Translations under genes and position numbers: made by a program
Notes under the pieces: generated by a model
Seen by the model: the letters and a program-made list of their open reading frames with translations, nothing else
What the model was told of the DNA's origin: nothing
The model's database searches: none
Shown here: positions 16,460 to 62,752 of the stretch, piece by piece
How positions within the stretch are numbered: position 1 is the first letter of the stretch
Layout: every line of letters starts with the position of its first letter
Virus record (IMG/VR): IMGVR_UViG_3300050821_001527
Span: 1-64,000 of that record
DNA length: 64,000 bases
Source: a virus
Reading direction: 5' to 3' (one strand)

Positions 16460-16462
16460 GGT

Positions 16463-16657: not shown

Positions 16658-16663
16658 GGTCTA

Positions 16664-16691: not shown

Positions 16692-16744
16692 GGATTATTT
16701 TTGCGATTTATTACGATTTTTGCGTAGCAAGTTACGTGCCATGC

Positions 16745-16811
16745 GTAAGTGCCTGATTATCAACGGGTTGCGCGGGCCGTCCGCGTAAGTGCCTCTGTCA
16801 CAAGCACTTAC
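16745..16811. repeat. Three-hairpin element, copy J
   Basis: Stem 1 is GTAAGTGCCTGA...GGGTTGC, stem 2 CGCGG-GCCGT-CCGCG, stem 3 GTAAGTGC...GCACTTAC. It follows the unit 17244-16821. Confidence 0.85.
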
Positions 16812-16820
16812 ACTGGCGAT

Positions 16821-17084: not shown

Positions 17085-17244
17085 TGCAGTAGTCGTTGGC
17101 TTCGTTCTGGTTGTAATCGGCGAGGTCATCCGAACCGTCACCACAGCCGGGGAAGCCAGCGCCATCATAGGGCTGTTCTTCGGGCGTGACGTGTGCGAGC
17201 CGGTGTTCGGGGTTCTGCGGGTCTAAGTCAGAGTTATTGTTCAT
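17077..17244 (-). CDS. Acidic small protein (55 aa)
   Basis: Not recognised. MNNNSDLDPQNPEHRLAHVT, then very acidic (GDGSDDLADYNQNEAND). The net negative charge could suit a DNA mimic, but nothing more supports that. First gene of the unit, with a leaderless promoter. Confidence 0.65.
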   Translation of the reverse strand: MNNNSDLDPQNPEHRLAHVTPEEQPYDGAGFPGCGDGSDDLADYNQNEANDYCNE

Positions 17245-17250
17245 GGGTAT

Positions 17251-17278
17251 AGAGTAGCACGTATGGCTAACGTGTCAA
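17251..17278 (-). promoter_or_regulatory. Early promoter, leaderless layout
   Basis: Minus strand: TTGACA (17278-17273), 16 nt, TACTCT (17256-17251), 6 nt, ATG at 17244. Confidence 0.85.
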
Positions 17279-17339
17279 CAAGTATATTTGCATCCCAATC
17301 ATCACATTGGCACGATGTATGCTATGCGTATTGGCGTGT

Positions 17340-17406
17340 GTAAGTCGTTGTGTATCAACGGGTTGCGCGGGGGAGCCGCGTAAGTGCTTGGTAATCAACG
17401 ACTTAT
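17340..17406. repeat. Three-hairpin element, copy K
   Basis: Stem 1 is GTAAGTCGTTG-TGTAT-CAACGGGTTGC, stem 2 CGCGG-GGGAG-CCGCG, stem 3 GTAAGTGCTTGG...CGACTTAT. It follows the unit 18075-17469, with about 60 nt of additional imperfect hairpins between it and the stop codon. Confidence 0.85.
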
Positions 17407-17468
17407 GACTCGTATCACAGCAGGATGTATGCCAACCACGCTCCGAACGCGATTGGCACACTATATGC

Positions 17469-17636
17469 TTACTCAACCATCGTCAGGTTGGACGTTGCAA
17501 CGCGCTTCTGTTGTCCGTCAGGCAGTAAGATGGTAGATTGACCGTTGCGCGAATGGGCAACCACGACAACCAAGATTTCAACGGCCAGCTTGCCCGCCTT
17601 GTAGTTCGCCATTCCTTGTATGTGGTTCATGGTCAT
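17469..17636 (-). CDS. Small hypothetical protein (55 aa)
   Basis: Not recognised. MTMNHIQGMANYKAGKLAVE, then a beta-rich part ending VATSNLTMVE. It starts 4 nt after the upstream stop. A second ATG 6 nt later is also possible as the start. Confidence 0.6.
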   Translation of the reverse strand: MTMNHIQGMANYKAGKLAVEILVVVVAHSRNGQSTILLPDGQQKRVATSNLTMVE

Positions 17637-17640
17637 GGTG

Positions 17641-18075
17641 TTAGTCCAGTGAACGGCCAGCTTTGCCGTCCGTCACATAGAACGGCTCGCCAGTCATGGG
17701 TTTAATGTCAATCCTGTCCGCATTGTGGAAAGCCGCGAACGTCAACGCCGCTTGGCGATGCTCGAAAGACTGCATTGTCTGGACGGGATTGGGCAAACCG
17801 TATTCCGTCCATTGGCTCAGGTTCGCATAACGATTAACGCACACATGCCACACGTTGCCGATGCACTCGGTAACGTTCGCACGGGTTTGACCAGCAACGC
17901 CCGCTTGGGGATTGCTCCAAACATACTCACCCGTTGCGGTGGTGATGACAACCGCCACGCCCCGCTTGTCGCACTTCTCCGCAAACTTCATGGCCGCGTT
18001 CAAGCTCTCGCGGGGAGTGGGGGCGATAAACTCCAATTCAATCCCTTTCGTGGTTGCAATGTAATTCTTATTCAT
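17641..18075 (-). CDS. Hypothetical protein (144 aa)
   Basis: Not recognised. The ATG at 18075 is chosen because the promoter ends 6 nt before it (the in-frame ATG at 18093 would lie in the promoter). Alpha/beta protein: IATTKGIELEFIAPTPRESL, then VAVVITTATGEYVWSNPQAG. It is the first of the reverse genes counted from the control region. Confidence 0.65.
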   Translation of the reverse strand: MNKNYIATTKGIELEFIAPTPRESLNAAMKFAEKCDKRGVAVVITTATGEYVWSNPQAGVAGQTRANVTECIGNVWHVCVNRYANLSQWTEYGLPNPVQTMQSFEHRQAALTFAAFHNADRIDIKPMTGEPFYVTDGKAGRSLD

Positions 18076-18081
18076 GGATAC

Positions 18082-18109
18082 AAGATAGCACACGCAAGGG
18101 GCATGGCAA
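18082..18109 (-). promoter_or_regulatory. Early promoter, leaderless layout
   Basis: Minus strand: TTGCCA (18109-18104), 16 nt, TATCTT (18087-18082), 6 nt, ATG at 18075. Confidence 0.75.
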
Positions 18110-18129
18110 GGGATTTCTTCAACTATCTT

Positions 18130-18153
18130 CTGTTGATAATCAACGATTTACAG
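18130..18153. repeat. Remnant of the three-hairpin element
   Basis: CTGTTGATAATCAACGATTTACAG looks like stem 3 alone, 20 nt upstream of the last reverse promoter. Stems 1 and 2 are absent. Confidence 0.5.
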
Positions 18154-18373
18154 ACCCCCTACCCTATTAACGGAAAAAAAACCATTTCGGGACGCGCAAA
18201 AGGGCTGGGGGGTGGTTAATACATAACGTCACCCCTTAAAATAACCAACCCTTTCTGAAATCTACCCCCTCCAATCCTCTCCCCTAATCATCTTGCCTCC
18301 CTGATGCTTCTCTTGACCCCTGAAAAATACGGGCGGGTATGTTTTCTCCGGGTAATTTGTTGAAATCGCGGGC

Positions 18374-18494
18374 TTCCGGCAGTTTCCGGCAATGAATTTC
18401 ACCCAAAACCCCAACAATATTGGCTTTCCATCACTCTTTCCGGCAGAATCCGGCAAGTCGAATGAGCGCCGGATGTTTCCAGATGGTGCCGGAT
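18374..18494. repeat. Cluster of six TCCGGC-type motifs
   Basis: TTCCGGCA at 18374 and 18384 (10-nt period), TTCCGGCA at 18438 and ATCCGGCA at 18448 (again 10 nt), and inverted GCCGGAT at 18468 and 18488 (20 nt). The helical spacing suggests binding of one protein on one DNA face, as in iterons or operators. Confidence 0.7.
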
Positions 18495-18544
18495 ACTATA
18501 AAATTCGATTTATTGATTAAAATATCACCCTCCCGAACAAAAAC

Positions 18545-18572
18545 TTGTTGAAATCAGTCTCCCTCCTAGTAT
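18545..18572 (+). promoter_or_regulatory. Possible promoter for the zinc-ribbon ORF
   Basis: TTGTTG (18545-18550), 16 nt, TAGTAT (18567-18572), 4 nt, ATG at 18577. A weaker form of the early layout on the plus strand. Confidence 0.45.
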
Positions 18573-18576
18573 AAGT

Positions 18577-18831
18577 ATGGCCGAAGTCACGAAAACTTGC
18601 AACTCTTGTTTCCAACCCAAGCCCCTTTCCGAGTTCAGTCATCAAAAGGGAACGCCTGACGGTTTGAAATATCGCTGCAAGACGTGCGACAAACGCTACT
18701 ACGACTCTTACTACGCAAAACAATCGGCCCATATCATGTCAACCGTTCGAGCGTGGCAGCAAAAGAATCCCGATGATGTCTCAAGGCACAAAGCCAACTA
18801 TCGTCGCAAGCAATCCCAGAAAAAAGTGTAA
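18577..18831 (+). CDS. HNH-family zinc ribbon without HNH core (84 aa)
   Basis: The N-terminal zinc ribbon C8, C11, C34, C37 has the same CxxC-x22-CxxC spacing as the HNH endonuclease at 4141-4767, and the following basic helix (MSTVRAWQQKNPDDVSRHKA) matches its linker. The protein stops before any HNH motif, so it looks like a truncated endonuclease. It may be a remnant or a small DNA-binding protein in its own right. It is the first forward gene after the control region. Confidence 0.6.
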   Translation: MAEVTKTCNSCFQPKPLSEFSHQKGTPDGLKYRCKTCDKRYYDSYYAKQSAHIMSTVRAWQQKNPDDVSRHKANYRRKQSQKKV

Positions 18832-27049: not shown

Positions 27050-27977
27050 GTGTTTGGTATGCAATGCTGAATTCGCGGACGACAAATCCTTGCATCGTCA
27101 TGTCAAGGCTCATGGCTTTCACGTCTTTGAATACTACCAGCACGTAACTCCGCGAAGGGATTTGCACGATGGGAGTTTAATACTGTTCAAAAACAAAGAG
27201 CAGTATTTCAAAACCGACTTCAATTCGATAACGAACATGCGCTTGTGGCTCGACGCGCAGACGCCCGAGAAAAGGGCGGAATACATGAAGGCTCTCCTTT
27301 CCAAAAGGCAGACGGAAAAGCATCTGGAATTCGCTCCGACGCAGGTTGAACTTCGTTCCTTGAAAATGCCGGGGATGTTCTACTACAATCAGGTGTTTGT
27401 GGACTATTACGCCCTGACGGACTCAATGGGGTTTCGTAGCCGATATGAATTCGTGGAAAAGTTGGACTGCCATGACTTGTTCAGGGATGCCGGTGCCAAA
27501 ATCTTTATTGACACGCGAGAGCAGTTGCCTTTGGAGTTCGATTGTCCGACGGAAACAGTAACGTTGAAGTTCGGAGACTACTCTTTTAGCAAGCCCGACC
27601 CGAGCGGGGCTGTCCACGTTGAACGAAAGTCCATAGGAGATTTTATTGGAACTTTGTCGGGTGGCAGGGAAAGATTTGAACGAGAAATCGTTCGCGCCAA
27701 GGAAGCCGGGGCATACTTGGTGGTGTTGGTTGAGGAAAACTTGGCCAACGCCATCAAGTTCAATACCTTGGAGTCGGTGTATCATAAGAATACCAAGGCA
27801 ACGCCGGAATTTGTGTTCCATAACGTTCGTGAACTGATTCAGCGATACGAACATATCCAGTTCTTGTTCGTAAAAGACAGGAAGCAGGCATCCAGCATGG
27901 TTAAGAGGCTTTTTTGCTGTGGCAACCAGATACGCAAGATTGATTTGCAGTATCATTATGATATAGGGCTACTCTAA
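27042..27977 (+). CDS. ERCC4/XPF-type nuclease with C2H2 finger (311 aa)
   Basis: The ATG at 27042 overlaps the upstream stop (ATGGTTAA); earlier in-frame starts lie inside the previous gene. A C2H2 zinc finger is at the N-terminus (C4, C7, H20, H24). The C-terminal half is an ERCC4-type nuclease domain: IFIDTREQLPLEF, then LKFGDYSF (about 174-181), HVERKSIGDFIGTLSGG (about 191-207, the ERK-xxx-D metal site) and YLVVLVEEN. These enzymes cut branched or flap DNA. Its place directly before the terminase suggests resolving replication or recombination intermediates before packaging. Confidence 0.8.
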   Translation: MVKCLVCNAEFADDKSLHRHVKAHGFHVFEYYQHVTPRRDLHDGSLILFKNKEQYFKTDFNSITNMRLWLDAQTPEKRAEYMKALLSKRQTEKHLEFAPTQVELRSLKMPGMFYYNQVFVDYYALTDSMGFRSRYEFVEKLDCHDLFRDAGAKIFIDTREQLPLEFDCPTETVTLKFGDYSFSKPDPSGAVHVERKSIGDFIGTLSGGRERFEREIVRAKEAGAYLVVLVEENLANAIKFNTLESVYHKNTKATPEFVFHNVRELIQRYEHIQFLFVKDRKQASSMVKRLFCCGNQIRKIDLQYHYDIGLL

Positions 27978-29806
27978 TGTGGTATTCGGCTGAGAAGTAT
28001 ATAAAAGGCGATTTAGTTGACGTAAACGCCGAACTGGAACAGATAGCTGGCGAGATGGAGGACAAGGAAGCTAAAATCGCCCTAGCTAGGTTCCTTCGCG
28101 CCAACATCGGATTCACAGTTGAACTGATTTCCGGCATAAAACTGGCCCCTTATCAGGAAATCATCCTCAAGGCCATGTTGCAAAGAAATTTCAGCATGAA
28201 CGTCTGGGGCCGTGGTTGCGCCAAGACTTTCGTGGCGAGTGTATTTTGCTTTCTGCAATGTATCTTTGAACCTAATTCCAAAATCCTGATTGCTGGCCCT
28301 ACTTTCAGAACGGCCCGATTCATATTCAGTAACTTGGAGAAGATGGTGTCGTCTCCCGGCGCACAGCTTTTGCAACAGGCTTTTTCCACGAAGCCGTCCA
28401 AGCGTGGTGACCAGTTTGAATGGTTGGTGAATGGAGGTTCCATTACGGCCATTCCGTTGAACGGAGAAAAGATTCGTGGTTTCCGTGCAAACATCCTTGT
28501 CTTGGACGAATACCTTCTTCTGCCGGAAGAAATCATCAAGAACGTCCTGATGCCGTTCTTGGTGGCTCCACAGGACATGACCGAGCGTTTGAGGATTCGT
28601 GAAGCCGAAGACGCCGCGATTAAGGACGGGCTGATGGGAGAGGCTGATAGGCAAATTTTCGAGAACAACTCGAAGATGATAGCCCTGTCCTCTGCTTCGT
28701 TCACATTCGAGAACCTTTATAAGACTTATCTGGAATGGACGGAACAGATAATGAGAAAGGAAAATGGGGACGCCACCTATTTCATCAGCCAGTTTGGGTA
28801 TGAAGCCTTACCGCCCGACATGATTGATAAAACAATCATCGAAGAAGCCCAAGCCGGTGGACAGTCCAATTCCTCGTTCCAGCGAGAATACTGCGCTCAG
28901 TTTACGGACGGTTCCGACTCTTATTTCAGCGCGAAAAAGATGCACGAATGCACGGTTCCCGATGGGCAGGAACCCACCCTAAGACTTACGGGCATTCCCG
29001 ACGGAAAATACCTGATTTCCATTGACCCAAGTTTCAGCAACGCTCCAAACTCCGACGATTTCGCCATGTCGGTATTTGAAATGGGCGAGGAAGAAAAAGA
29101 TGCCGTGCTGGTTCATAATTATGCCGTGGCCGGGGCCGACTTGAAAGAACATATCCAGTATTTCAAGTATCTGATGGATTCGTTCAAGCCTGAAATGATT
29201 ATTATTGATAATGCCGGGTTCCAGTTTATTGATTCCTGTAATGAGTCTGATTATTTCAGGAGCCAGCAGTATCCCATGACCTTCTTCGATTTCGACAGCG
29301 ATTTGGAAGGCGTGGACTATGAGTTGATGGTCAAGCAGGCCAGAAACCAATACAATAAGGAGAAAAACTGCATTTGCTTCAAGCAGAATTTCAGCAGTGA
29401 TTTCATCCGAAAGGGGAATGAGCATCTACAGGCTTGTATTGACTATAAGAAGATTTGGTTTGGCTCCCGCATCTCTCCCAACGGAGCGGCTTTCGACAGG
29501 GCCACCAACTCTACCCTTCGCATCCCGTTAAAGCCGGAAGAAACCATCATTGATGCCATTGACACGCAGGACGACCGAATTTATCAGGTTAAAAAGCAAT
29601 GCGCCCTTATCGAAGTCAAGTCAACGGTCAAGGGCACCCAGTCTTTCGACCTACCTCAACATCTAAAAAGAAACACGTCTGCCAACCGAGCGCGTAAAGA
29701 CAGTTACACGGCCCTGATGCTTGGAAACTGGCTGTTCCGTTGCTACAAAGACATCAAAACCGCCCCAATCGAACAGGTTGGGACTTTCACCCCGTTCTTT
29801 GTATAA
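27977..29806 (+). CDS. terL: Terminase large subunit (609 aa)
   Basis: DNA packaging motor: an ATPase that pumps DNA into the prohead and a nuclease that cuts it. The Walker A variant is WGRGCAKTF (about 77-85) and Walker B ILVLDEY (about 174-180). The C-terminal RNase H-like nuclease begins YLISIDPSFSNAPNSDDFAM (metal Asp at about 350) and continues IIIDNAGFQFIDSC. Length is normal. It overlaps the ERCC4 nuclease by 1 nt (TAATG). The portal follows after one fibre gene. Confidence 0.9.
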   Translation: MWYSAEKYIKGDLVDVNAELEQIAGEMEDKEAKIALARFLRANIGFTVELISGIKLAPYQEIILKAMLQRNFSMNVWGRGCAKTFVASVFCFLQCIFEPNSKILIAGPTFRTARFIFSNLEKMVSSPGAQLLQQAFSTKPSKRGDQFEWLVNGGSITAIPLNGEKIRGFRANILVLDEYLLLPEEIIKNVLMPFLVAPQDMTERLRIREAEDAAIKDGLMGEADRQIFENNSKMIALSSASFTFENLYKTYLEWTEQIMRKENGDATYFISQFGYEALPPDMIDKTIIEEAQAGGQSNSSFQREYCAQFTDGSDSYFSAKKMHECTVPDGQEPTLRLTGIPDGKYLISIDPSFSNAPNSDDFAMSVFEMGEEEKDAVLVHNYAVAGADLKEHIQYFKYLMDSFKPEMIIIDNAGFQFIDSCNESDYFRSQQYPMTFFDFDSDLEGVDYELMVKQARNQYNKEKNCICFKQNFSSDFIRKGNEHLQACIDYKKIWFGSRISPNGAAFDRATNSTLRIPLKPEETIIDAIDTQDDRIYQVKKQCALIEVKSTVKGTQSFDLPQHLKRNTSANRARKDSYTALMLGNWLFRCYKDIKTAPIEQVGTFTPFFV

Positions 29807-44563: not shown

Positions 44564-44899
44564 ATGGCTAACCGATATGATATTTGCATTGAACAAGGGT
44601 CGAACCTCAGTTTCCAAATCACCGTTGCTGACGCGACAGGTGCCCCTCTAAATCTTTCCGGTTACGCCGCATCCGGTCAAATTCGATATGGATATGGATG
44701 CACTGGAATGCTTGTTGCTTTAACCGTGGGAGTTGATAGCTCCTACGTCAGCGGACTTTTGAACGTCTCTCTGACCCCGGAACAGACTTCTGCGCTGCCG
44801 GTCACAAAAGCGGTTTACGATATTGAAGTGTCGCAAGGAGACTCTACCTTCAAGGCGGTCAAAGGATACGCAGAAATCTATCCCGAGGTAACGCAATAA
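44564..44899 (+). CDS. Small Ig-like/baseplate-type virion protein (111 aa)
   Basis: The pattern IEQGSNLSFQITVADATGAP, LNLSGYAASGQIR and ending FKAVKGYAEIYPEVTQ resembles small beta-sandwich phage structural domains (for example N-terminal domains of baseplate upper proteins). Overlaps the next gene by 1 nt (TAATG), so the two probably form one appendage. Confidence 0.6.
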   Translation: MANRYDICIEQGSNLSFQITVADATGAPLNLSGYAASGQIRYGYGCTGMLVALTVGVDSSYVSGLLNVSLTPEQTSALPVTKAVYDIEVSQGDSTFKAVKGYAEIYPEVTQ

Positions 44900-46389
44900 T
44901 GAATGATTTCCAAGTCACGGTCAACACGAATCCGGTAAATGTCACGGTTATTAAACAACCGATAGACGTAACTGTTTCTGTTGTCGGTGTGCAAGGCCCG
45001 TCGGGGTCTAGTGACGGCGGGGGAGGAATTCAGAAAGTTTTCGAGGTCTATCTACACGCTGATTACATCGTTGACCCTGCGGTTGGCATTCAACCCGCTT
45101 TGACTTCGGGGTATAACGTCCTTCTTACACAGCCTACCAGTGGGGACAGGGGCATCTATTCTGTCAATGGAGATAACTCTTTATCGTTAAGGACGAGTCT
45201 TGAAACTACGAGTTACGATGGCTCTATTGTATGGGCCTATCTAAAGCAATCAGAGGATAATGGAACCCAAACTGGCCCGTTTACTTATGGAGTTTATTTC
45301 AGCGAATTTTGCTTTCTTGTTCCATTGATGACTCCAAATTTCCTTCCTATAAACGGTGGGAATATGGTTGGCCCCATTTTCTTTGGTAACTATGGGCAAA
45401 ACATCAATGTAGGTTCTTTCGATAACGGGCTTGGGGGTGGGAGTGGTATTAGTTTAAACTGCGCTGTCAATTACGAACTGAACTGGCAAGCTGGGCATTT
45501 AAAAAGTTGGTATAACGGAGCTACTCAGCCACTCATGCTGGACTCCTCGCTCATTATTGACATTGGCGGCGGGGCTTCTCTTGGCTCTGCCACGAAATAT
45601 AGAAATAATGGATTCAGCCATTATACCGCAGGAGTCTCGGGTAATAGTTTCATAGTCGCAGATACCAGCGATTACGGAGGGTCGCCTTGGGGAAATAGTC
45701 CTCTAGTCAAATTTATAATTTCTACAGGAGAAGTCCAAGTTCCCGTTAATTTCAAGAACAACTCAATGAGTAGTCTTGACGTGAGTGGGAATAATTCCGT
45801 CGGGCCTTACATCCTAATCAACGCTTATAACTCAGCAGAGAATTCTGGGGACATTTCGTTTCCTAACCATTTCTTACAGCAACCAAGTTTCAATCCTGAC
45901 CTATTGGGCATAGCTGTTCTTGATGAACCGCAGCCTACTGGCGGGGCGTATCCTCTTTATATCAATATTCTTGATGCTTCTGGCGTTGATAATACGAGCG
46001 TGTTAAACGCATTAACGGGGGTAGTGACTTATTTTAGTCTTACTCAGAATGGGAAGACGGCGATTTATCAAACGGCCACGGGTTCCTTTACATTGGCTCA
46101 GGGACAGGCGGCTTATGACCCCTACTATATCGGAAGCCAGCCAGTCACGTTGATTCAACCGGCTGGCGTGTCGTTTAATACGACCGACCCGATTTACTTT
46201 GGCGTTGGGCCAATGGAAGCATTCTGTATCGTAAGCGGCTCCGGTAACTTTTTTGGCCTGTCTGTTCAGGGAAATCCGGTGGCTGTTACGTCAGACTTGC
46301 TTAACCAAGTCTCAATTTTACAGGCTCAAATTGACCTTTTGAGCGGAATGCTCAACACATTGAGTGGTCTAGCAATTTTAGGACAGTAA
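44899..46389 (+). CDS. Tail or neck fibre (496 aa)
   Basis: Starts NDFQVTVNTNPVNVTVIKQP and has a short GVQGPSGSSDGGGG hinge, then a beta-rich body with no enzymatic motif. The C-terminal ~30 residues form a hydrophobic trimer-like coil (LNQVSILQAQIDLLSGMLNT). Likely a fibre attached through the preceding small protein. Confidence 0.65.
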   Translation: MNDFQVTVNTNPVNVTVIKQPIDVTVSVVGVQGPSGSSDGGGGIQKVFEVYLHADYIVDPAVGIQPALTSGYNVLLTQPTSGDRGIYSVNGDNSLSLRTSLETTSYDGSIVWAYLKQSEDNGTQTGPFTYGVYFSEFCFLVPLMTPNFLPINGGNMVGPIFFGNYGQNINVGSFDNGLGGGSGISLNCAVNYELNWQAGHLKSWYNGATQPLMLDSSLIIDIGGGASLGSATKYRNNGFSHYTAGVSGNSFIVADTSDYGGSPWGNSPLVKFIISTGEVQVPVNFKNNSMSSLDVSGNNSVGPYILINAYNSAENSGDISFPNHFLQQPSFNPDLLGIAVLDEPQPTGGAYPLYINILDASGVDNTSVLNALTGVVTYFSLTQNGKTAIYQTATGSFTLAQGQAAYDPYYIGSQPVTLIQPAGVSFNTTDPIYFGVGPMEAFCIVSGSGNFFGLSVQGNPVAVTSDLLNQVSILQAQIDLLSGMLNTLSGLAILGQ

Positions 46390-51991: not shown

Positions 51992-54900
51992 ATGGCAGCA
52001 CCCGAGATTCTATTGGCGGTAGGTGGGGATTTAACAGCGTTGAACAACGCTATTGATTCCGCATTGAGTCGTCCAAGGAACTTCAGGGGCATCAACGCCA
52101 ATTCCTTTACCGAACCTCTCGGTAGAATCACTGGAAAAGCCTCCGAATTCTCCAAGTCTATGGAGGCGTCCAACGCCCGTGTTTTGGCGTTCGGTGCTTC
52201 TGCCGGTGCGATTTACGCCGTTCACAAGTCCTTCGAGACTCTCCTGTCCTCGACGATTGAAGTCCAGAAGTCAATGAACCTTTTGGGCACGTTGTTCAAC
52301 GCGAGCAACGCCACGCTCAAGAACTTCTCCAATAGCCTGTTCGACGTGGCCAATCTGACCGGGCAGAGTTTCAGGTCTGCCACGGAAGCCGCCAACACGT
52401 TCGCCCGTCAGGGCTTGAGCGCGGCGGAAACGCTTCGCAGAACCAGAGACGCCCTGATTCTTGCTCGTATCGCCGGTATGGACTTCGGAGATTCGGCGAG
52501 GGTCATTACCACGGCCATTAACTCGTTCAACAAGGAAGCCCTAACAAGCACCGAAATCATCAACGCCTTGAGCGCGGCGGAAACTCACTTCTCCGTCAAC
52601 TCGTCCGACTTGGCTCAAGCCATTTCCCGTGTAGGAACGTCTGCTGAAAACGCGAACGTCACCCTGAACGAAACCATTTCCTTAATTACTAGCGCGGCCC
52701 AAATCACTGGCCGTTCCGGTTCGGTAATCGGTAACTCGTTCAAATCCATCTTCACCCGTCTCGAACGCCCGAAGGTTTTGGAAGACTTACAGCAAATCGG
52801 TGTTACAACCAGAGACGCATCTGGTAATGTTCTTCCGTTGGTTCAGGTTCTCAAGAACTTGGCATCTACCTACGACTTGCTGACCCCAAGCCAGAAGTCA
52901 TTCATCACGGAAGCTGTTGGTGGTGTCTATCAAATTAACACGTTGAAAGCCGTCCTTGGTGACTTGGGAAGCGGCTTTAGTGTCTATGACCGCGTTCTCA
53001 AGACGGTTGAAGGTTCGACTTCATCCGTCATTGACCGTAACAACCAACTCAACGAAACAATTTCCGCGAAGCTCAATGCCACCCTCAACAACCTAATCCA
53101 AGCCGGTTCCAAGGTTGGAAACTTGGTTATTGCACCTTCGCTCGGCAAGGGAGCCGATTTGGGCGCGAACTGGATGAAGGGTATTTCGGAAGCCATTGAT
53201 TCAAAGTCCTTGGGCGGAGATTTGGCGCGTGGGCTGCTCAAGGGTCTTGGAGACGTTATCAGCGGGCCGGGAGTCCAGTTTATTACGTTTGCCATGCTCA
53301 AGTTGTTCCAGAACCTTGCGACGTTCGCGGCCAAGTCTGTTGGAGAATTCACCGGGGTTTCCACAAAGGCGAAGGAACTTGAACTTACTCAGGTTCAGGT
53401 CTTGCAGCAGTTGCTCCAACAGCCAAAGGTCTTGGAGTCCATCAAGACTGGGACGATGACGGTTGACCAAGCCGCCAAGCAAGTTTTCAGAGATATTCAG
53501 GCGCAGAATTCCGCCTTGGAAGCCCAGTTGGGACTTGCGCGTTTGATTGCCAAAACGGGCATGACTGGCGGCGTGTCTGTTCAGGGAACCAAGTATAGGG
53601 CCGCTTCGGGTTATGTTCCGAGTTTCTTTGACGAGTTCGCTATGGAAGAAGCCCACGCCAAGTCCTTGGGTGCGGCGGCTCCTAGAGCGCACTTCGGCAA
53701 GGGAACCATTGGTGGCCGCAAATTTATTATGAACTCTCAGGAGACTGAGATTCCTAATTTTGGCTCCAACGGAGACTCGGCGGTTATACCGAACTACTCG
53801 AAGGGCTTTGTTCCTAATCTCGCTGTTGGCCGCGAAGACATCTTGACATCCAGAGATAAGCTTAGAAAGCACACCGGCAGAGTCGCCAGCTTGTTTGTCG
53901 CTGAAAAGGGTGCGAGGGAATACGGCGAATTCTACAACGTATTCCGCTACTCCGATAAGGAAAAGGTCAACTTCCTGCCGGAAATCGAAAAGTTCGTATC
54001 AGAAAGAACGGACAAGGCACCAATTCCTACCGGGGGAAGGGGAGCTATGTCTGCTTTGGCGGGCGTCATCTTTGAAGCTCTAATCAGAAAAAAGGCCCAA
54101 ATCGGAAACGTCGAAGACGCTAACTTCGACATTCCAAGTGTTAGGGCTGTCAAGAAAAACCTGACTCCATTTTTCGGAGATTCCGTTGATGGCGGGTTGC
54201 TGGATGCCGGTGACTTCAAAATTTCCGACTCGGTTCGCGCCAGAAAGAGCCTAGAAAAGAAAATCATCAACAGACTCGATTCCATGCCTAACATGAAGGC
54301 GGAAGGTCACTACCCTGATTCCGCTTACGGGCCATACGGAAAGACAATCACCAACGCTTCTTCCCAAGGTCTTCCGGGTATGCTCGAAGGCGCGGAATTC
54401 ATCGGCAGCGGAGTCCAAGGGGTTGTATATAAATACACTCTGCCAAGCGGCAAACAGAAGATTGTCAAAATTCCTAGAAAGCAGGAAGATGTTGGCCGTC
54501 TGCATGACGATGTAAGAAAGCAGAGGGCGTTCTATGGCTCCTCCCCTGACCTTGGAGGATATGTTAATCCGAACAAGCCATCCCTTTACCTAAACTACGG
54601 AGACTACAAAGAAGGCAGAGGAGCCGGTATTTCCGAATTGGAAATGCTGACAGGTGAAAAAAGGGTCAACGGCCTGCACAATCAGCAGGAGAGCAGCCTA
54701 CATCAGTCGTTCATGGGACGCCTAAAGGGTAATCCTAACGCGGAAGCCATCGCAAGTAGGGCTACCCGCATGACTCTATCAGATGTGAAGCGTAACTTCT
54801 CCAAGTATAACAAGGTTTACAGCAAACAGGGCAGGGGATTTTACTATGGCCGTAATGGGGCGGTAGGAAACTATACCCTCAATAATCTTCATCCAGCCAT

Positions 54901-57900
54901 CACTCCAAGCGGATTGATTTTCAAGGACTATGTTGAATCCAACGGCCAGAATTTAATTAAGGGACACTTGCTTGATGGGGTCGCCAAGGCGTATTCAAAC
55001 GTAGGTGGATACCCGGACATGATTCGCGGTATCAGGGAGAGTTACGTCAACCCGAACAATGGTCAAGTTTCCGTTTACGACTTTGCTGACGGATATATTC
55101 CAAGGTCTGACCTTTACAGTCTGCCTTGGAGACAGCGTGTGCGCGGCCATGACCGCCCGGTTCCTCCTACTGAAACCGCCGACAGATTCAGGGAGTATGA
55201 AACATATCTCTTGCAGGCCGGTTTGCCGAAACTGGGCTTTGAAGGAGTCCACGACCTAAACTCGGTTTTGGGAACAAATTCCAGAGCGGACTTCTTTGCC
55301 CGCCGAAGCGGAGTCCCTCACATCGTTGACGCCAAGGGTGGCTACAATGACGCCCAGCCTAGCGACATTGCTGCCAAGGAAGAAAGCTTCGCCATGCTCA
55401 AGCAGAATCCGAAGTTCTTGTCATTTCTCCGCAGCCAAGGCATCGTAAACCCGGACGAAGTTCGTGAAGCCATCGTGTTCGGAAACATGGGACACGGGCA
55501 GCGCAAGAAGCTGGCGGAAACTGGCAAGTTGATGATGGCCAATGGCTTCATGCCGAATCTTGCGGGTCTTTCATTCCAGCAATCCTTCGATAAGGAGTTC
55601 GGCATCACTAAACTCACCGGGACAATGGGTGGGAAAACAGTCGGTGACATTGAATACAGCGGCAACGATGAAAAGGAAATCGAAGGCTTTGAAATCAACA
55701 AGGCATTTCGTGGAAAGGGACTGGCCAAGAAGTTCTACAAGGCTTTGGGCAGAGGTCGCGTATCGGGAACCCTTCTTCCTCAATTCGGCAATAATGGAAA
55801 TGCGTTCTTCCCTCAGTTGTCCCGCGCTAGAATGGCAAAGTCTGCAACGGTGCAGGGGTTTGACGGCTCGGAAATGACTGTTGCCCAATTCGAGAAGCTT
55901 GTCCAGATGAACTCTGGTAATCAGGGCTTCTGGAATGATAACTCTTTTAACTTAATCTCTCACCACGCTCAGGGGTTCGTCCCGAACTTGGTTGACCCCG
56001 GATATATTTCCTCCACCTTGGAAAGAATCAAGAATGGAACCAGTGGTTTCTCTGACGCGGAGAAGGCGATGTTCCTAAAGAAGTTCGCTGGAAAAACCGG
56101 AGCCTTGGGTTCTCCGTTTGGTGTGGATATTTTGGGAATTGATGATTTGCCGCCGATGGTTCCTTTCTGGATTCAGAACGCAGCACGTAAGAAGTATGGG
56201 AAGGATGCCTATGTCAGTGTCCAGCCGCATTTGGCTGAAAAACTTCGTGCCGCCATAAAGCAAGACCCAAGCATTGTTCATAATTTCAGTGCATTGGAGG
56301 GGTTGTTCAGCGGCGGCATCGCGGCGACCTCGTTCGCGCAAGGATTCGTTCCGAACTTCTCCAACCCGCTCACTTCCGCCATCAATAGGGAAAGAGCGGC
56401 TGGATACAGTTCTTCCCAAATCCGCGTTGGGCATGATTCCGCATTGGTTAGCGCGATGAACCCGGATGGAGTTGGTGTTTATAACTCTACAGAAGGCTCT
56501 CTCTCGAACGGTATTGGCCTTGCTCGTCGCGCCGGTATTGACCCTAAGACAAAGGGCATGGCCAAGGGTAACATCCCTAACTTCGCCGATGTTGGAACTT
56601 CGATGGCTTTGGGAGGAATGCAGTTCTTGTTGGCTATTCCTCTTATCAGCGGTGCATTGCAGAAAATGACTTCTCCGTCGAAGCAGGCTGCGGAAGCTAT
56701 GGAGAAGCTTGAGGGAAGAATCACGAAGCTTACAAAGGTAAGTGCCCAATACGACAGTCGCTTGGAAAAGACCAATCAGTCTTACGAAATCACGATGAAG
56801 GCTATTGATGGTCTTTATCAGAAAGCGGCTAAGACGGGATACCTGAGTGGGGCCGAAGTATCCGCGCTAACAATGCTCGAAGGTAAGGCGGCGAAGGAAG
56901 AAGGGGCCATGAAGTTGTATGCCTCTGGAAAATCCAGAGCGGAATTGCAAAAGACCACTTCCCTAAGCGAGTTAATCTCAGAGCAGAAGAAAACTACGTT
57001 CGGACAAAAACTCTTTGGTGGAGAAAATTACGAAAAGACCTTCGCTGGCAAAGCCCAAGGATTCGGCTTGGTAGCGGGCATGGGTGCGGGAATAGGGATG
57101 AATGTCGCTGGTGAAATGATTGGCGGCGACAAGGGTAAGGCTCTTGGCGAATTTGGTTCAACCATTCAGACGGCAGGGCAAGTTATGGCTACAATCCCCG
57201 GCCCAGCAGGGCTTGTAGCGGGTGCCCTTGTGGTGATGAAAGGAGCGATTGATTTCGCTGATAAGGCCGCATGGGGATTCGCAGAGAAGATTAAGGACGC
57301 CGCGCAGGAGAAATTGACCGGCATTGATAACATGGATGCTGCGTCAAACGGACTTGCCCAAGCGATGTCGAATTACCAAACTTTACTTGACGACTCCCAC
57401 GCCACGAATACCGCATTATTGAAGGCTCAAGAGAAATACAAGACAGCCTTGAATAATTTCGTCGCAAGCGGATTTTCCAAAGACGACATTACGAAGGTCA
57501 CCGGTGCTGGAACAATGTCCGAACGACAAGCCGCGCTCCAAGAGCTTAACGAAAAAAATGCCAGAGAGAAGGAGAAGCAGACGACGATTTCCCAATCTGC
57601 GGATTTGGCAGAATCCATTGCAATCAATACTAAGAAGGATAACGTATTCAATCAATCTCTTTTTTCTTGGGGAGGAATGGGGAATTTTATATCGGGAAGG
57701 AAGGATATAGACGGCATTGAATCTTTGTGGAGCGGCAAAGCCGGGAAAAGTATCTTTGATGAGAAGTTCTCCAAAGAAGGTGGTGGCAATAACCTCCTCA
57801 CGAAGATGACTCAAGAGGCTATGGATAGCGGGGATTCCAAAGGATATATCGCGGATATGAAGGAGAAGGGCGTCCTTGATGACCAATCCGCTGGAATTCT

Positions 57901-59467
57901 ATCCAGAAACATACAAGCAACCAAAAAATATGTCACCGCTGCCGAAGAAATGGGCAAAATTATAGACCAGAACGTCGGGCAGCAGAGGGCGCAGCAACAG
58001 TCAATGGAACGCTACGCCCAAGGTCTAAAGCAACTCCAAAACGAATTGAGGACATTCGCGGGTGACGCGTTCTTCAAGCAGATGGACAATATTTCCGAGA
58101 GAATGAAAAGCGGAGCGAACGCTCGTCACGGTGATGCGGAAATTGCCGGGGCTTTGGCTTTAAGCTTGACAAAGGGCGGTGGGGTAAACAGAAACGGCAT
58201 CATTATGAACTCGGACGAGAAGGCTCTGACCGAGATTGATAACACGATGGCTAAAATTGGGGCCGACATGGATGTCGCGCTATCTGGCGTCAACGCCAAT
58301 TTCACCAAGGGTTTGACGGACTTGGTTAAGGGGGAATTCGCGGGGGCCAAGGGTGGGGCTAATGGAAACAATCAAGCTACATTCACAAACGAGCAATACA
58401 ACACTTCCGCTCAAATCATCAATCAGATTACCCAAGACCTTTTCAAGAATGGAAAGCTTAACGGCAGCGCGGAACAGACTCGCGGAACAATCGCCAACGC
58501 CATAGATGCAAGAGGCAGGGTGCTTCAAGGTGCTGACCCCGGCATCAGCGCGTTGTTGAGACAGTCCGCGAACTCATTGGTTGGTTCCAAGGGGCAAGAG
58601 CTAATCCAACAGCAGTTGCTCGAAACACAGAAGGTATCCACCGAATATTTGGAGCAGACTGCCAAGGCTACAATCGAGTCCAAGGACAAGTTGCAGCAGA
58701 TGATTAACCAGAGAATCCTTGCTGCGGGCGGGGGTGTAAGCTCGTTCACTCAGGATTTCGGAGCTTCCTATAGGAGAAGCCTCAGACAAGACATCAGCGA
58801 GTCTCGCTCTGGTGTCCCAGAAATGGCCGGTGTCGGCGCAATCAACTTCCTCAAGAAAGCCAAAAACGACTTGGGTATTGGCGAAGGGGACGCTTTGTTC
58901 ACGGACATGAAGGCCAAGGCTATTACCGGAGTCGAATCCGAACTCAAGAAAACCTATGGGGTTTACGCAAGACAGGGCTATAATACTCCGTCGGATGCAG
59001 GCATCCATGATATTGCCAGCAGACAAGTAGAGAACGAAGTCGGCGGGGCGTCGGTGAACGAACTGATGCAAAAGGGCAACGACTTGCAGGATAAGGCGAA
59101 TGGCTACTTGGTTCAGATTTTGGAAAGAAACGGCATGGCTAGTGACCAAACCAGTCGCATAAAGCTTCAAAATGACTTGTTCACCGGCAAGGGTATCACG
59201 TCGTTCCAGAACCAGTCGAACGTGGCGATAGACTCTCAGGTTACGAGGTCTATTGATTACGCATCCATGCAAATGATGATGGTGGCTGGCAAGATTGAAA
59301 AGGCGTCGGAAAATCTCAAGTCTCTCAAGGGAGAAATTGACATTACGATTACGCAAATTAAAGAAAACGACCCAGCGGGCAAGCGCACGACAAGACAGAG
59401 CGCGATTCTCGAATCGGTAAAATCCGCTCAGACTAAGGCACCGTCTGACGTATATCAGAACATGTAA
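51992..59467 (+). CDS. Tape measure protein with embedded domains (2491 aa)
   Basis: Sets tail length and is ejected with the DNA. Residues 1-~520 are helical and resemble the tape measure core (TEAANTFARQGLSAAETLRR, SVIGNSFKSIFTRLERPKVL). Short motifs of the type G(F/Y)(V/M/I)P(N/S/R)x then recur at 540, 605, 1034, 1185, 1328, 1451 and 1526. Between them lie distinct domains: ~612-790 nuclease-like (GVIFEALIRKKA, LLDAGDFKI); ~795-1030 kinase-like (FIGSGVQGVVYKY, IVKIP); ~1050-1182 restriction-like (SRADFF, PHIVDAKGG); ~1190-1325 GNAT-like (INKAFRGKGLAKKFYKALG); ~1330-1450 unassigned. Residues ~1451-1526 carry the NFSNPLTSAINRERAAGY module seen in other long-tailed phages. Two Gly-rich hydrophobic segments (~1535-1555, ~1690-1750) could enter the host membrane. 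The rest is helical. Confidence 0.85.
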   Translation: MAAPEILLAVGGDLTALNNAIDSALSRPRNFRGINANSFTEPLGRITGKASEFSKSMEASNARVLAFGASAGAIYAVHKSFETLLSSTIEVQKSMNLLGTLFNASNATLKNFSNSLFDVANLTGQSFRSATEAANTFARQGLSAAETLRRTRDALILARIAGMDFGDSARVITTAINSFNKEALTSTEIINALSAAETHFSVNSSDLAQAISRVGTSAENANVTLNETISLITSAAQITGRSGSVIGNSFKSIFTRLERPKVLEDLQQIGVTTRDASGNVLPLVQVLKNLASTYDLLTPSQKSFITEAVGGVYQINTLKAVLGDLGSGFSVYDRVLKTVEGSTSSVIDRNNQLNETISAKLNATLNNLIQAGSKVGNLVIAPSLGKGADLGANWMKGISEAIDSKSLGGDLARGLLKGLGDVISGPGVQFITFAMLKLFQNLATFAAKSVGEFTGVSTKAKELELTQVQVLQQLLQQPKVLESIKTGTMTVDQAAKQVFRDIQAQNSALEAQLGLARLIAKTGMTGGVSVQGTKYRAASGYVPSFFDEFAMEEAHAKSLGAAAPRAHFGKGTIGGRKFIMNSQETEIPNFGSNGDSAVIPNYSKGFVPNLAVGREDILTSRDKLRKHTGRVASLFVAEKGAREYGEFYNVFRYSDKEKVNFLPEIEKFVSERTDKAPIPTGGRGAMSALAGVIFEALIRKKAQIGNVEDANFDIPSVRAVKKNLTPFFGDSVDGGLLDAGDFKISDSVRARKSLEKKIINRLDSMPNMKAEGHYPDSAYGPYGKTITNASSQGLPGMLEGAEFIGSGVQGVVYKYTLPSGKQKIVKIPRKQEDVGRLHDDVRKQRAFYGSSPDLGGYVNPNKPSLYLNYGDYKEGRGAGISELEMLTGEKRVNGLHNQQESSLHQSFMGRLKGNPNAEAIASRATRMTLSDVKRNFSKYNKVYSKQGRGFYYGRNGAVGNYTLNNLHPAITPSGLIFKDYVESNGQNLIKGHLLDGVAKAYSNVGGYPDMIRGIRESYVNPNNGQVSVYDFADGYIPRSDLYSLPWRQRVRGHDRPVPPTETADRFREYETYLLQAGLPKLGFEGVHDLNSVLGTNSRADFFARRSGVPHIVDAKGGYNDAQPSDIAAKEESFAMLKQNPKFLSFLRSQGIVNPDEVREAIVFGNMGHGQRKKLAETGKLMMANGFMPNLAGLSFQQSFDKEFGITKLTGTMGGKTVGDIEYSGNDEKEIEGFEINKAFRGKGLAKKFYKALGRGRVSGTLLPQFGNNGNAFFPQLSRARMAKSATVQGFDGSEMTVAQFEKLVQMNSGNQGFWNDNSFNLISHHAQGFVPNLVDPGYISSTLERIKNGTSGFSDAEKAMFLKKFAGKTGALGSPFGVDILGIDDLPPMVPFWIQNAARKKYGKDAYVSVQPHLAEKLRAAIKQDPSIVHNFSALEGLFSGGIAATSFAQGFVPNFSNPLTSAINRERAAGYSSSQIRVGHDSALVSAMNPDGVGVYNSTEGSLSNGIGLARRAGIDPKTKGMAKGNIPNFADVGTSMALGGMQFLLAIPLISGALQKMTSPSKQAAEAMEKLEGRITKLTKVSAQYDSRLEKTNQSYEITMKAIDGLYQKAAKTGYLSGAEVSALTMLEGKAAKEEGAMKLYASGKSRAELQKTTSLSELISEQKKTTFGQKLFGGENYEKTFAGKAQGFGLVAGMGAGIGMNVAGEMIGGDKGKALGEFGSTIQTAGQVMATIPGPAGLVAGALVVMKGAIDFADKAAWGFAEKIKDAAQEKLTGIDNMDAASNGLAQAMSNYQTLLDDSHATNTALLKAQEKYKTALNNFVASGFSKDDITKVTGAGTMSERQAALQELNEKNAREKEKQTTISQSADLAESIAINTKKDNVFNQSLFSWGGMGNFISGRKDIDGIESLWSGKAGKSIFDEKFSKEGGGNNLLTKMTQEAMDSGDSKGYIADMKEKGVLDDQSAGILSRNIQATKKYVTAAEEMGKIIDQNVGQQRAQQQSMERYAQGLKQLQNELRTFAGDAFFKQMDNISERMKSGANARHGDAEIAGALALSLTKGGGVNRNGIIMNSDEKALTEIDNTMAKIGADMDVALSGVNANFTKGLTDLVKGEFAGAKGGANGNNQATFTNEQYNTSAQIINQITQDLFKNGKLNGSAEQTRGTIANAIDARGRVLQGADPGISALLRQSANSLVGSKGQELIQQQLLETQKVSTEYLEQTAKATIESKDKLQQMINQRILAAGGGVSSFTQDFGASYRRSLRQDISESRSGVPEMAGVGAINFLKKAKNDLGIGEGDALFTDMKAKAITGVESELKKTYGVYARQGYNTPSDAGIHDIASRQVENEVGGASVNELMQKGNDLQDKANGYLVQILERNGMASDQTSRIKLQNDLFTGKGITSFQNQSNVAIDSQVTRSIDYASMQMMMVAGKIEKASENLKSLKGEIDITITQIKENDPAGKRTTRQSAILESVKSAQTKAPSDVYQNM

Positions 59468-59469: not shown

Positions 59470-61131
59470 ATGTCGAACGTAGTAAATAGGGAAGGTTTAA
59501 ACCTAGAACTACTCGGATACACTTCAAAAAGGGAGTATTTCGGGGGCGAATCCGTCGTGTTCAGAAGGGTCGAAGCCTACGTATATGATTACGTCACCAC
59601 TGACCTTGCCAATTACGCCAGCGGACTAAGCCCGTTGATAGCTTCCGGTATCAGCGGACAGATAGCCAATTTCTCGGGTGATGTAACTATTCGCGGACTG
59701 GATATTCCAAATTCCTATGACTCATTGGAAGAACAAATCCGCACAGCCCGATATAAGATTACTGTTGAAGTCAGAACGTCCATCGGCTCGGGGGACTCGA
59801 ATTATTACACTGGGCTGAATTACATCACTCAATCCGGGTTTGCGGCTCTTGATGGGTTTAGCGAAAGTTTCGATTTCGAGAATGCGGAAGACGCCCAAAA
59901 GCTCAACCACTCCATCAGCTTCTCCCTAAGAACCGGGGACATGGGATTCGCGCAAGCCTTGGCTTCTGGACTCATGCAGGAATCTGAGCCGCAGAATCTC
60001 GGAATCGGAGTTTTGTCTGGATACCTTGGGCAATACAATGATGCTAGTTCAGAGAACTACTACACGGAAGCTTATGATACTTTCAAGAACACGTATTCCT
60101 TCAAGAAGACCAAAAACCTTTACAAGATTACCGGGGTTGGTTTTACCTTCGATACCAACACCCGATACGAGTTCAATGATGGCATCAGCACCGTCATAGA
60201 CGAAATCAAAGTCAGGGGGAAACAGAATTTTACTCAGGCTTCTGACGGACTTAATGCCCTCATTGGTTCTTCCGAGTCAAGATGCGCTGATGTCTATGGG
60301 GCGTATCAGGGATTCTCCAATCTGGATGGAGCCGGGACTCTATTCTCTACGCCTTTGAAAAAGGTTCTCAAGTATAACCAGCAGGCTCTCGCTGCCGAAG
60401 CCTCGTTGACCTTTACGGACAATCCTCTCTACGCCAACGACTACAAACTAGACGAGGTTATGAATTTGACGGTTGACCAAAACGGTATTGTCAAGGTCAC
60501 TGATGACTATACCATGACCCTGCTGGATTTCGTGGACTCGGACATGGCTTCCACACATAAGGACGAGTTTAATAACGCCACGAGGTCTGACTTCAGCCAA
60601 ACCCAGTCTAATAAATTTTACGCAAGCTTTCTATATGGGCGTTCCCTGTATCCTGTCGGGCTGACCAAGAAACTGCCTTTGAGAAAAAGGGTTTTCACAG
60701 CGAATTACGAATATTCTGATGACCCGAGATATGGAGTAACTTTGACTTCCATTAGCGGGGCCACGAAAACGTTCCCGAACGTGGATATGAAGTTGACGGA
60801 AACTGCACCGAAGGATTCTCTGACTGAATACAAGGTCATCAACAAGCCTGAAACTTTGGTGAACTATGCCTATCAGCAGGTTCCCGGTTCCAAAACAATG
60901 TCAATCACCGCCATACGCACAAGGCCGGATGGCAACCAGTTAGTGTCACTGGATGTCCCGGTCACGGAAGTCCAGTGCTTGTATGCCACGGCGTTAAACA
61001 AAATCAGTCAGACTTTTGAGAACTTTAATGGCCTGAACTATTTTTTATCGAACGTGGTCGTCAACCTGAATTCGGAAAATAAGTTGGAACTGAACGCGAC
61101 GGTGAGCTACACTAAGAAGAAGTATGTCTAA
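59470..61131 (+). CDS. Distal tail/baseplate protein (553 aa)
   Basis: Starts 2 nt after the tape measure. Beta-rich, with LNHSISFSLRTGDMGFAQAL and later LRKRVFTANYEYSDDPRYGV. Its position and pairing with the similar-sized next gene fit the distal tail or hub proteins that cap the tail tip. Overlaps the next gene by 8 nt. Confidence 0.6.
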   Translation: MSNVVNREGLNLELLGYTSKREYFGGESVVFRRVEAYVYDYVTTDLANYASGLSPLIASGISGQIANFSGDVTIRGLDIPNSYDSLEEQIRTARYKITVEVRTSIGSGDSNYYTGLNYITQSGFAALDGFSESFDFENAEDAQKLNHSISFSLRTGDMGFAQALASGLMQESEPQNLGIGVLSGYLGQYNDASSENYYTEAYDTFKNTYSFKKTKNLYKITGVGFTFDTNTRYEFNDGISTVIDEIKVRGKQNFTQASDGLNALIGSSESRCADVYGAYQGFSNLDGAGTLFSTPLKKVLKYNQQALAAEASLTFTDNPLYANDYKLDEVMNLTVDQNGIVKVTDDYTMTLLDFVDSDMASTHKDEFNNATRSDFSQTQSNKFYASFLYGRSLYPVGLTKKLPLRKRVFTANYEYSDDPRYGVTLTSISGATKTFPNVDMKLTETAPKDSLTEYKVINKPETLVNYAYQQVPGSKTMSITAIRTRPDGNQLVSLDVPVTEVQCLYATALNKISQTFENFNGLNYFLSNVVVNLNSENKLELNATVSYTKKKYV

Positions 61132-62752
61132 GGGAAACGTCCAAGTCATCTATAATGGCAACGTGATTTCGCCCACTCCGTTCGTGAGCAGGGTGGAAAA
61201 CGCGATTGACTATGGGCATCGCTGGGGCGTGTCGGACGCCATTACGCTCAAAGGTCTGTATCCGACCAGCGGCTTAATTAGCGGTGTGATTCCCCAATTC
61301 CTAAACCTGTTCTCAGGAGACTTCGCCAGATTCTCAGTTATAGACACGGGAGAGCATGTCACGGTCTTGGACTACCCGCACGTCATTCTTGAGGAAATTT
61401 CTTTTGACTCGAACCATTTCTTTCCAAACACCTATGTCCCATACACGGTGAAGCTGAAGAATATCAATGTCCCAAGCGGTGTTACCGAACCCGTAAACGA
61501 ATATTCGTTCGTTCAAAACGAAGACGGAACCGTTACTGTAAACCACAGGGTTTCCGCCAAAGGTGTTGTAACGAGCGACTCTTTTGATTCGGCGTTACAG
61601 AATGCGGTAACATTTGTTTCGGCTTTTACGGGATTTCTACCATTCAATCCGGTGTTTGTAAGTTTTGGTTCTGGTGTTCTGCTTTCCCAGTCCGAATCTT
61701 TGGATAGACTTACATCTGTTTACTCCGTGGCGGAAGTCTTCAAGTATAATTCGGGAGAAAGCCTTCCTTATGTTTACACTCACAGTTTGGATATAGACGA
61801 ATCGCCGGATTCGGACTATGTGACTATGAGCCTGAAATACAATCGCCAAGGTTCGTCAATCACGTCAAATTTGGAAGCCTTGAGGGTCGGGCTTGAGGGG
61901 TTTGATGTTGTTGGATTTCTTTCGTCACAATACGGAATCGGGAACGCCGACTGCTATATCAACAACCTGAATGTTGTTGAATCTTCCGGCAAAAACAACA
62001 TCCAGATTAACGCGAGCATCGTATCCGGGGTCGGCGATGAATTCAACGGGTTTTTCGATTTCGACTTGGATATGAGATGGGATAGGGTGATGGATGTAAA
62101 GCAGTTTTCTTTAAATGGAAAATTCATCAGCAAGGCTCCAATCTCTTTGAGGAAGACTTTCCTTAACACGTTCAAGACAAACGTTACCACCGCCTATGGT
62201 GATTATCGTAACTACGTCTATTCCTTGATTACGGGCGAGAGTCCTAACATGGGCGTTTCTCTGAGAAGTTTAAACCCGATTCCTACATCCCTCAGTATCA
62301 ACGAGAACACGGGACTTGCAGAATTGTCCATCACGGCCACGTTCAATGACAAGGACTTCTTGGATGGGATTGGCGAGTCGTCCTTCAACGCGAGCTTTGA
62401 TGTCCCGAAAAACATCTACGAATTTAAGCCGTCCGCGAACATCGAAGGAAACTACATCATTCAGGACTTGCAGACCAACACCCGAGAAACCTTGAAACTC
62501 ACGTCGAGCTTCAAGACCACGGGAAACATGGATTACGCGCTTTCAAATGGGCCGCAAGTTCTCACCCAAATCGGAAATCAAGTATTGAGCAATTTCTTCC
62601 TGACCGAAAGCGGGTTCAGCACGGGGGTCTTTGACTTGGACATCAATGCCTCTTACCTAAACAGCGGCAGCGTATTCGGACTTGACACCAGATACTATCT
62701 TTCCTCGAACCCTAGCTCGATTAGGCCACCGGGATACAAGTATGGTCTGTAA
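61124..62752 (+). CDS. Distal tail/baseplate protein (542 aa)
   Basis: Companion of the previous protein. It has comparable segments (TVTVNHRVSAKGVVTSDSFD; SVYSVAEVFKYNSGESLPYV; a second half AELSITATFNDKDFLDGIGE) and similar size, so the two may be distant paralogues that form a ring together. Tail tip location inferred from order. Confidence 0.6.
   Translation: MSKGNVQVIYNGNVISPTPFVSRVENAIDYGHRWGVSDAITLKGLYPTSGLISGVIPQFLNLFSGDFARFSVIDTGEHVTVLDYPHVILEEISFDSNHFFPNTYVPYTVKLKNINVPSGVTEPVNEYSFVQNEDGTVTVNHRVSAKGVVTSDSFDSALQNAVTFVSAFTGFLPFNPVFVSFGSGVLLSQSESLDRLTSVYSVAEVFKYNSGESLPYVYTHSLDIDESPDSDYVTMSLKYNRQGSSITSNLEALRVGLEGFDVVGFLSSQYGIGNADCYINNLNVVESSGKNNIQINASIVSGVGDEFNGFFDFDLDMRWDRVMDVKQFSLNGKFISKAPISLRKTFLNTFKTNVTTAYGDYRNYVYSLITGESPNMGVSLRSLNPIPTSLSINENTGLAELSITATFNDKDFLDGIGESSFNASFDVPKNIYEFKPSANIEGNYIIQDLQTNTRETLKLTSSFKTTGNMDYALSNGPQVLTQIGNQVLSNFFLTESGFSTGVFDLDINASYLNSGSVFGLDTRYYLSSNPSSIRPPGYKYGL

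Follow-up and report, generated by a model that had tools for sequence, protein, structure and literature searches.

A fixed slot for exchangeable enzyme-like cassettes in the tape measure protein of a clade of uncultured tailed phages

The tape measure protein (TMP) analyzed here carries a series of cassettes between a conserved N-terminal core and a proline-poor C-terminal part, and in related phages whole cassettes are swapped, gained, and lost with breakpoints at the short repeated motifs that separate them. We think it fairly probable that this TMP has a fixed cargo slot from which exchangeable enzyme cassettes are delivered to the host cell. The gene lies in a stretch of 64,000 nucleotides (the window) taken from a virus record of 202,882 bases (IMGVR_UViG_3300050821_001527). 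Its ORF, frame, and coordinates (51,992–59,467) are as given in an earlier note made from the letters of the window, and the tape measure identity proposed there is borne out. Indeed, PhageMin_Tail (PF10145) matches residues 123–307 with an E-value of 4.6e-31 and 108.7 bits, against a Pfam cut-off of 33.2, and ten PHROG tape-measure families match within the first 570 residues. The features of the gene are as follows:

51,992–59,467, + strand: TMP ORF, 2,491 aa, carrier of the cassette array (PhageMin_Tail, PHROG)
51,992–53,581, + strand: N-terminal core, residues 1–530, conserved across the family
53,609–53,626, + strand: border motif 1, GYVPSF, residue 540
53,639–53,818, + strand: linker module, residues ~550–609, EEA...GKGTIGGRKFIMNSQETEIPNFG...DSAVIPNYSKGFVPN, kept in relatives
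53,804–53,821, + strand: border motif 2, GFVPNL, residue 605
53,825–54,346, + strand: nuclease-like cassette 1, residues 612–785, core 664–770 (profile, conserved residues)
54,344–55,090, + strand: kinase-like cassette, residues ~785–1033 (motifs)
55,091–55,108, + strand: border motif 3, GYIPRS, residue 1034, degenerate
55,109–55,543, + strand: nuclease-like cassette 2, residues 1040–1184 (motif only)
55,544–55,561, + strand: border motif 4, GFMPNL, residue 1185
55,559–55,966, + strand: GNAT acetyltransferase-like cassette, residues 1190–1325 (homology to relatives' cassettes)
55,973–55,990, + strand: border motif 5, GFVPNL, residue 1328
55,991–56,341, + strand: cassette with no assigned fold, residues 1334–1450 (partial relative)
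56,342–56,359, + strand: border motif 6, GFVPNF, residue 1451
56,360–56,566, + strand: closing module (mod2), residues 1457–1525, kept in relatives
56,567–56,584, + strand: border motif 7, GNIPNF, residue 1526
56,585–59,467, + strand: C-terminal part, residues 1532–2491, proline-poor

Upstream of the TMP, the window encodes TerL (27,977–29,806) and tail-fibre-like genes. The large genes around the TMP (44,899–46,389 and 59,470–62,752) have no PHROG or Pfam match. Within positions 1–18,800, the longest ORF on either strand is at most 229 aa, and the long late genes start after 18,841; no tRNA was found in the window.

Related TMPs were collected with queries of increasing reach: eight came from a DNA pattern of the linker module, 27 loci from an alignment of the same module, and three scans with TMP-core alignments confirmed 455, 561, and 562 loci, that is, more than 560 related loci from uncultured phages. 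The best 80 of the confirmed loci were kept per TMP-core scan, and the working set comprises 168 non-redundant TMPs, of which 120 are complete. The 168 proteins share a common plan, which starts at the N terminus with a core of ~540 aa, continues with a linker, a slot holding one to ten cassettes, and a second module, and ends in a C-terminal part poor in proline. The window TMP core is 35–48% identical over ~500 aa to those of 27 related TMPs, and its linker module is 57–74% identical in the same number of proteins, always at residues ~530–560; in other TMPs, a linker of a different sequence type occupies the equivalent place. Of the 168 TMPs, 119 contain the closing module mod2, which nearly always ends the row ahead of the C-terminal part and is 37–51% identical between the window TMP and the first 27 relatives. 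Core length is 543 ± 26 aa (89 TMPs). The cassette region extends over 311–1,815 aa, and its length is uncorrelated with that of the C-terminal part (r = 0.01). Fifty-six cassette clusters were found among 96 TMPs, and the complete TMPs divide into 93 with at most one long cassette and 27 with at least two. In one relative (L047), the same TMP has a second slot far downstream, from residue 1829, with a second linker, a cassette bearing a peptidase-like AHEAHH motif, and then another mod2.

Proline makes up 5.0% of the cassette region of the window TMP, 1.7% of the core, and 0.9% of the C-terminal part. This contrast in composition is as would be expected for globular domains placed between helical parts, and the C-terminal part is presumably helical and length-setting. 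Among 50,697 named phage records, the TMP core alone finds matches: the linker, mod2, and the window cassettes have none, and no similar cassette architecture was found there. YomI of SPbeta is 31% identical to the core of one relative (L159). One related TMP lies on a contig of 6.9 kb that was binned as Flavobacteriales, and a search of 298 other genomes from this order gave no further one.

The seven repeated motifs described in the earlier note conform to G[FYN][VMI]P[NSR] and are well beyond expectation, as shuffling the TMP 2,000 times yields a mean of 0.027 motifs and a maximum of two. The 120 complete related TMPs most often carry four motifs and up to 11, against 0.017 per shuffled TMP. 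Chance is not the explanation, since the related TMPs carry the motif at the same borders; indeed, GF[IV]PNF is present at nearly every one of their cassette borders. Among the window ORFs of at least 100 aa, the seven-fold motif G[FYN][VMI]P[NSR] was found in the TMP ORF only. The idea of a general virion-protein tag was rejected, three further matches at related loci also looking like TMPs.

Exchange of the cassettes was followed in 45 TMP pairs with N-termini at least 88% identical, 34 of which show breakpoints. Of 71 distinct homology edges in the slot, 58% lie within 4 aa of a motif centre (7% at random) and 77% within 8 aa (14% at random), with a median edge-to-motif distance of 3.7 aa against 35.8 aa expected; as all of these edges stem from 26 TMPs and pairs that are related do not count independently, we describe the excess without a P value. 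Individual pairs illustrate the process. L115 has two cassettes more than L114, and the alignment blocks stop and resume on the same GFVPNF. In the pairs L159/L165 and L169/L188, flanks of 81–96% DNA identity enclose middle cassettes without detectable similarity. Where a single cassette is replaced, both alleles match the nuclease-like profile, one divergent allele taking the place of another. One cassette is 96% identical between L106 and L115, where it stands in rows that otherwise differ. The segments between the motifs are thereby supported as separate exchangeable units in a fixed TMP slot. Inserts that vary between fixed motifs are what the comparison of related TMPs proposed in the earlier note was to look for, and its suggestion that the motif is a domain border is supported by the breaks in DNA homology and the swapping of whole cassettes. 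Polymorphic toxins, too, are built from a constant carrier and variable domains, with a constant border where they join. The adjacent immunity gene that varies with the toxin in such systems was not found at the pair L159/L165: outside the TMP cassette, the two are collinear over ~15 kb, and hence no immunity gene nearby differs along with it.

One widespread cassette family is represented in the window by nuclease-like cassette 1 (profile E-value 1e-15) and occurs in 104 of the 120 complete TMPs. The window copy has the signatures GVIFEALI (residue 691), NFDIPS (711), and AGDFKIS (739). In an alignment of 80 sequences with an overall identity of ~20%, Gly690 and five putative active-site positions are conserved at 94–100%: E694 (94%), D712 (97%), D/E740 (97%), K742 (97%), and K756 (96%). 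An AF2 model (pLDDT 79, pTM 0.73) places the Glu in a helix, the D-x-K at the end of a strand, and the last Lys in the following helix, with a further helix between the Asp and the D-x-K. A Foldseek search of this model against PDB and BFVD gave no match at E ≤ 0.001, and the alignment profile found no nuclease in the PDB; its match to plant lectins was judged spurious. Thus, of the first PD-(D/E)XK-like metal site claimed in the earlier note, the residue pattern E-D-(D/E)xK-K stands, conserved at 94–97%, and the fold search added no match to it. In this putative nuclease, the conservation pattern is of an enzyme type, most like that of PD-(D/E)XK proteins. Two copies of the nuclease-like domain per TMP are seen in L089, L090, L093, L099, and L104.

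The GNAT-like cassette is 34–39% identical to GNAT cassettes of L172, L183, L106, L115, L114, and L090 (phmmer E-values down to 2.8e-12). The window copy scores 13.1 bits with Pfam Acetyltransf_1, below the cut-off of 20.7, which is exceeded by the cassettes of L172 (29.7 bits, 8.3e-7), L183 (26.2 bits, 1e-5), L106 (21.2 bits), and L115 (20.8 bits). The acetyl-CoA loop RGKGLA at residues 1240–1245 (FRGKGLA from 1239) fits the Q/RxxGxG/A pattern, and its Arg, Gly, and second Gly are invariant in the seven homologous GNAT cassettes. Homology to cassettes that pass the Pfam cut-off, together with the kept loop, supports the GNAT identity first proposed from the loop.

The kinase-like cassette and the second PD-(D/E)XK-like one are both orphans and, as motif-based leads, may be enzymes of these types. 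In the former, GSGVQGVVYK at residue 805 and IVKIP at 824 provide the Gly loop and Lys826 noted earlier; VYDFADG at 1028 is possibly DFG-like, and no clear HxD is present. No Pfam kinase family matches the segment. The latter contains RADFF...VDAKGG at residues 1098–1117. Neither has homologues in any search of phage records or related TMPs, and scans with exact peptides retrieved one contig with an identical copy and nothing else. Among the first 27 relatives, these two segments and the GNAT segment had no match. Two weak kinase matches in genomes of the order Flavobacteriales were rejected, as the ORFs look like unrelated repeat and TPR proteins. A joint model of the kinase-like, second nuclease-like, and GNAT cassettes is of low confidence (pLDDT 42), with only a β-β-β-helix around the Gly loop well predicted (local pLDDT 81–84), and a fold search with it was uninformative. 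Joint alignments of the kinase-like, GNAT, and mod2 segments (A11–A13), in which GNAT rows are partly misplaced, were left out. For both claims, then, the motifs are real, and neither relatives nor a reliable model accompany them. Of the cassette at residues 1334–1450, the first 46 residues are related to a cassette of L034 (phmmer 2.9e-7).

Several cassettes of the relatives pass Pfam cut-offs for enzyme families: PolyA_pol in L253 (2.9e-19, with tRNA_NucTran2_2) and L224 (3.2e-14), HIGH_NTase1_ass in L202 (1.5e-7), and AAA_33 in L102 (4.7e-8). The CCA-type cassettes, which have a border motif at either end, retain GGAPRD, DWDVE, and an HD-type segment. Judged by such profiles and residues, some of the relatives' cassettes are true enzymes, namely GNAT, CCA-adding enzyme/poly(A) polymerase, a HIGH-type nucleotidyltransferase (by its associated region), and an AAA_33 P-loop kinase. 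Many other cassettes have no Pfam match. Inspection by eye, without profile support, picked out ADP-ribosyltransferase-like cassettes in L063 and L093, metallopeptidase-like motifs in L063 (HEEFGH) and L115 (HEASH), HAD-like cassettes in L060 and L106, and a ParB-like cassette in L060 (ParB_N 0.007, under the cut-off). L183 combines the GNAT domain with a subthreshold HIGH-NTase match in one TMP.

Two further observations concern these cassettes. An apparently complete CCA-adding enzyme is present within the TMP at residues 1536–2058 of L253 and 1206–1680 of L224; a tRNA-repair cargo in a TMP would be striking. A P-loop segment paired with an HxGH-type nucleotidyltransferase lies upstream of the nuclease-like domain in two TMPs (L038/L063, residues 547–1360; L202, residues 1050–1476), and this pair is possibly NAD- or nucleotide-related.

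The swapping of cassettes across hundreds of related phages suggests that the tail delivers a changeable enzyme set along with the DNA. The slot, bracketed by the linker and the closing module between the conserved core and the C-terminal part, would be carried in the virion and, as the TMP in the tail tube enters the cell envelope at infection, its cassettes would reach the cytoplasm ahead of or together with the DNA. There they may act on nucleic acids, tRNA, proteins, or nucleotides, so that a defence would be disarmed or the host taken over. In phage lambda, the TMP aids entry of the genome across the inner membrane and was labelled during injection by means of a fusion to the host channel protein ManZ (PMC13190303). 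Points against this reading are the orphan kinase-like and second nuclease-like cassettes, the missing fold match of nuclease-like cassette 1, the many cassettes with no Pfam match, and a tail tube through which folded enzymes may not fit, so that the cassettes would need unfolding or processing. The motif could be a hinge or a cleavage site, with the cassettes folding or being released singly, and its repeated DNA might supply short homology for recombination. The constancy of the motif fits a hinge, a protease site, a tube- or chaperone-binding site, and a recombination anchor alike.

The cassettes could instead be structural, as globular inserts in the tail lumen or tip that contact the baseplate or envelope, resemble enzymes, and vary with the host in the manner of receptor-binding domains. 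That most cassettes match no enzyme family, that the model of nuclease-like cassette 1 matches no enzyme fold, and that TMP sequence is linked to a host membrane partner (PMC13190303) would all agree with such a role, which we nevertheless consider unlikely: the CCA-adding enzymes keep both catalytic and HD residues, the GNAT domains keep an intact acetyl-CoA loop, and E-D-(D/E)xK-K is near-invariant in otherwise divergent sequences. Less likely still is that the cassettes act late in the producing cell, for instance after proteolytic release from the nascent TMP, and are never delivered into the next host. Fusion to a TMP is not needed for late expression alone, and a single polypeptide with the cassettes at a constant place between the core and the length-setting part favours co-packaging; on the other side, tail proteins can undergo processing during assembly, and no linked immunity gene swaps with the nuclease-like cassette.

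This last point weighs differently on the possibility that the TMPs are polymorphic toxins, in which the nuclease would be the main killing domain, aimed at competing phages or bystander cells and not an aid to infection. The constant carrier, the swapped units, and the nuclease-like domain in 104 of the 120 complete TMPs do resemble such toxins, and the MuF polymorphic toxins are phage-borne (PMC5576092). However, L159 and L165 differ in the cassette alone, with no change in an adjacent immunity gene, and repair-type enzymes such as the CCA-adding ones are unlike toxins; we regard this as the least likely of the three. For the uncultured clade as a whole, we see about an even chance for the full form of the delivery reading, in which the TMP is a cargo rack, the GF[IV]PNF-clipped cassettes are fired into the host as a counter-defence and takeover kit, and the motif serves as both joint and recombination site.

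Injection of multi-domain effectors by phages is a known kind of system, and so are polymorphic carriers. In phages and conjugative elements, polyvalent proteins (Iyer, Burroughs, and Aravind 2017, PMC5512222) likewise join several conflict-type catalytic domains in one polypeptide (kinase, GNAT, ART, nuclease, peptidase, and others) and are presumed to be injected along with the DNA. The window TMP compares with a supported GNAT, a probable nuclease, and a kinase-like segment that, unlike their kinase domains, has no Pfam kinase family match. Recombining cassettes were suggested for them, whereas swapping at a motif is seen here on the DNA; here a TMP is the carrier, with a fixed slot, a standard border motif, and closing modules, and the word "tape" is absent from the main text of that paper. 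Sle1-type effectors, loaded in actinobacterial contractile injection systems (PMC13277306), are also TMP-related and modular, carry a diverse functional domain in a tail-like particle, and are exchangeable by design. Sle1 belongs to a cellular injection system, whereas the TMPs here are from tailed phages and have up to ~10 cassettes joined by GF[IV]PNF and set between core and C-terminal part. The MuF toxins (PMC5576092) are phage-encoded constant domains with variable toxin-like extensions; they are encoded next to the portal gene and extended at the C terminus, whereas the cassettes here are multiple and internal to a TMP, with no immunity gene seen changing with them. TMPs with peptidoglycan-hydrolase domains, such as SPbeta YomI and those with enterococcal lytic transglycosylases (PMC10194240), share the presence of an enzyme within the TMP; theirs act on the cell wall, whereas the domains recognised here are of cytoplasmic type. 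Among the papers listed when the open literature (without subscription papers and preprints) was searched for TMPs with acetyltransferase, tRNA nucleotidyltransferase, effector, or toxin domains, none reports such an array.

Phages inject some enzymes, and the TMP is usually viewed as setting the tail length and carrying, at most, a hydrolase for the cell wall. In a survey of phage protein modularity, TMPs looked mosaic and genuine recent cases were not confirmed (PMC10684548); the pairs described here look like genuine recent mosaicism, with breakpoints at a defined motif. Should delivery prove true, the cassettes would amount to a collection of new enzymes for takeover and counter-defence, and the combination of slot and motif would allow protein delivery through the phage tail to be studied in laboratory strains.
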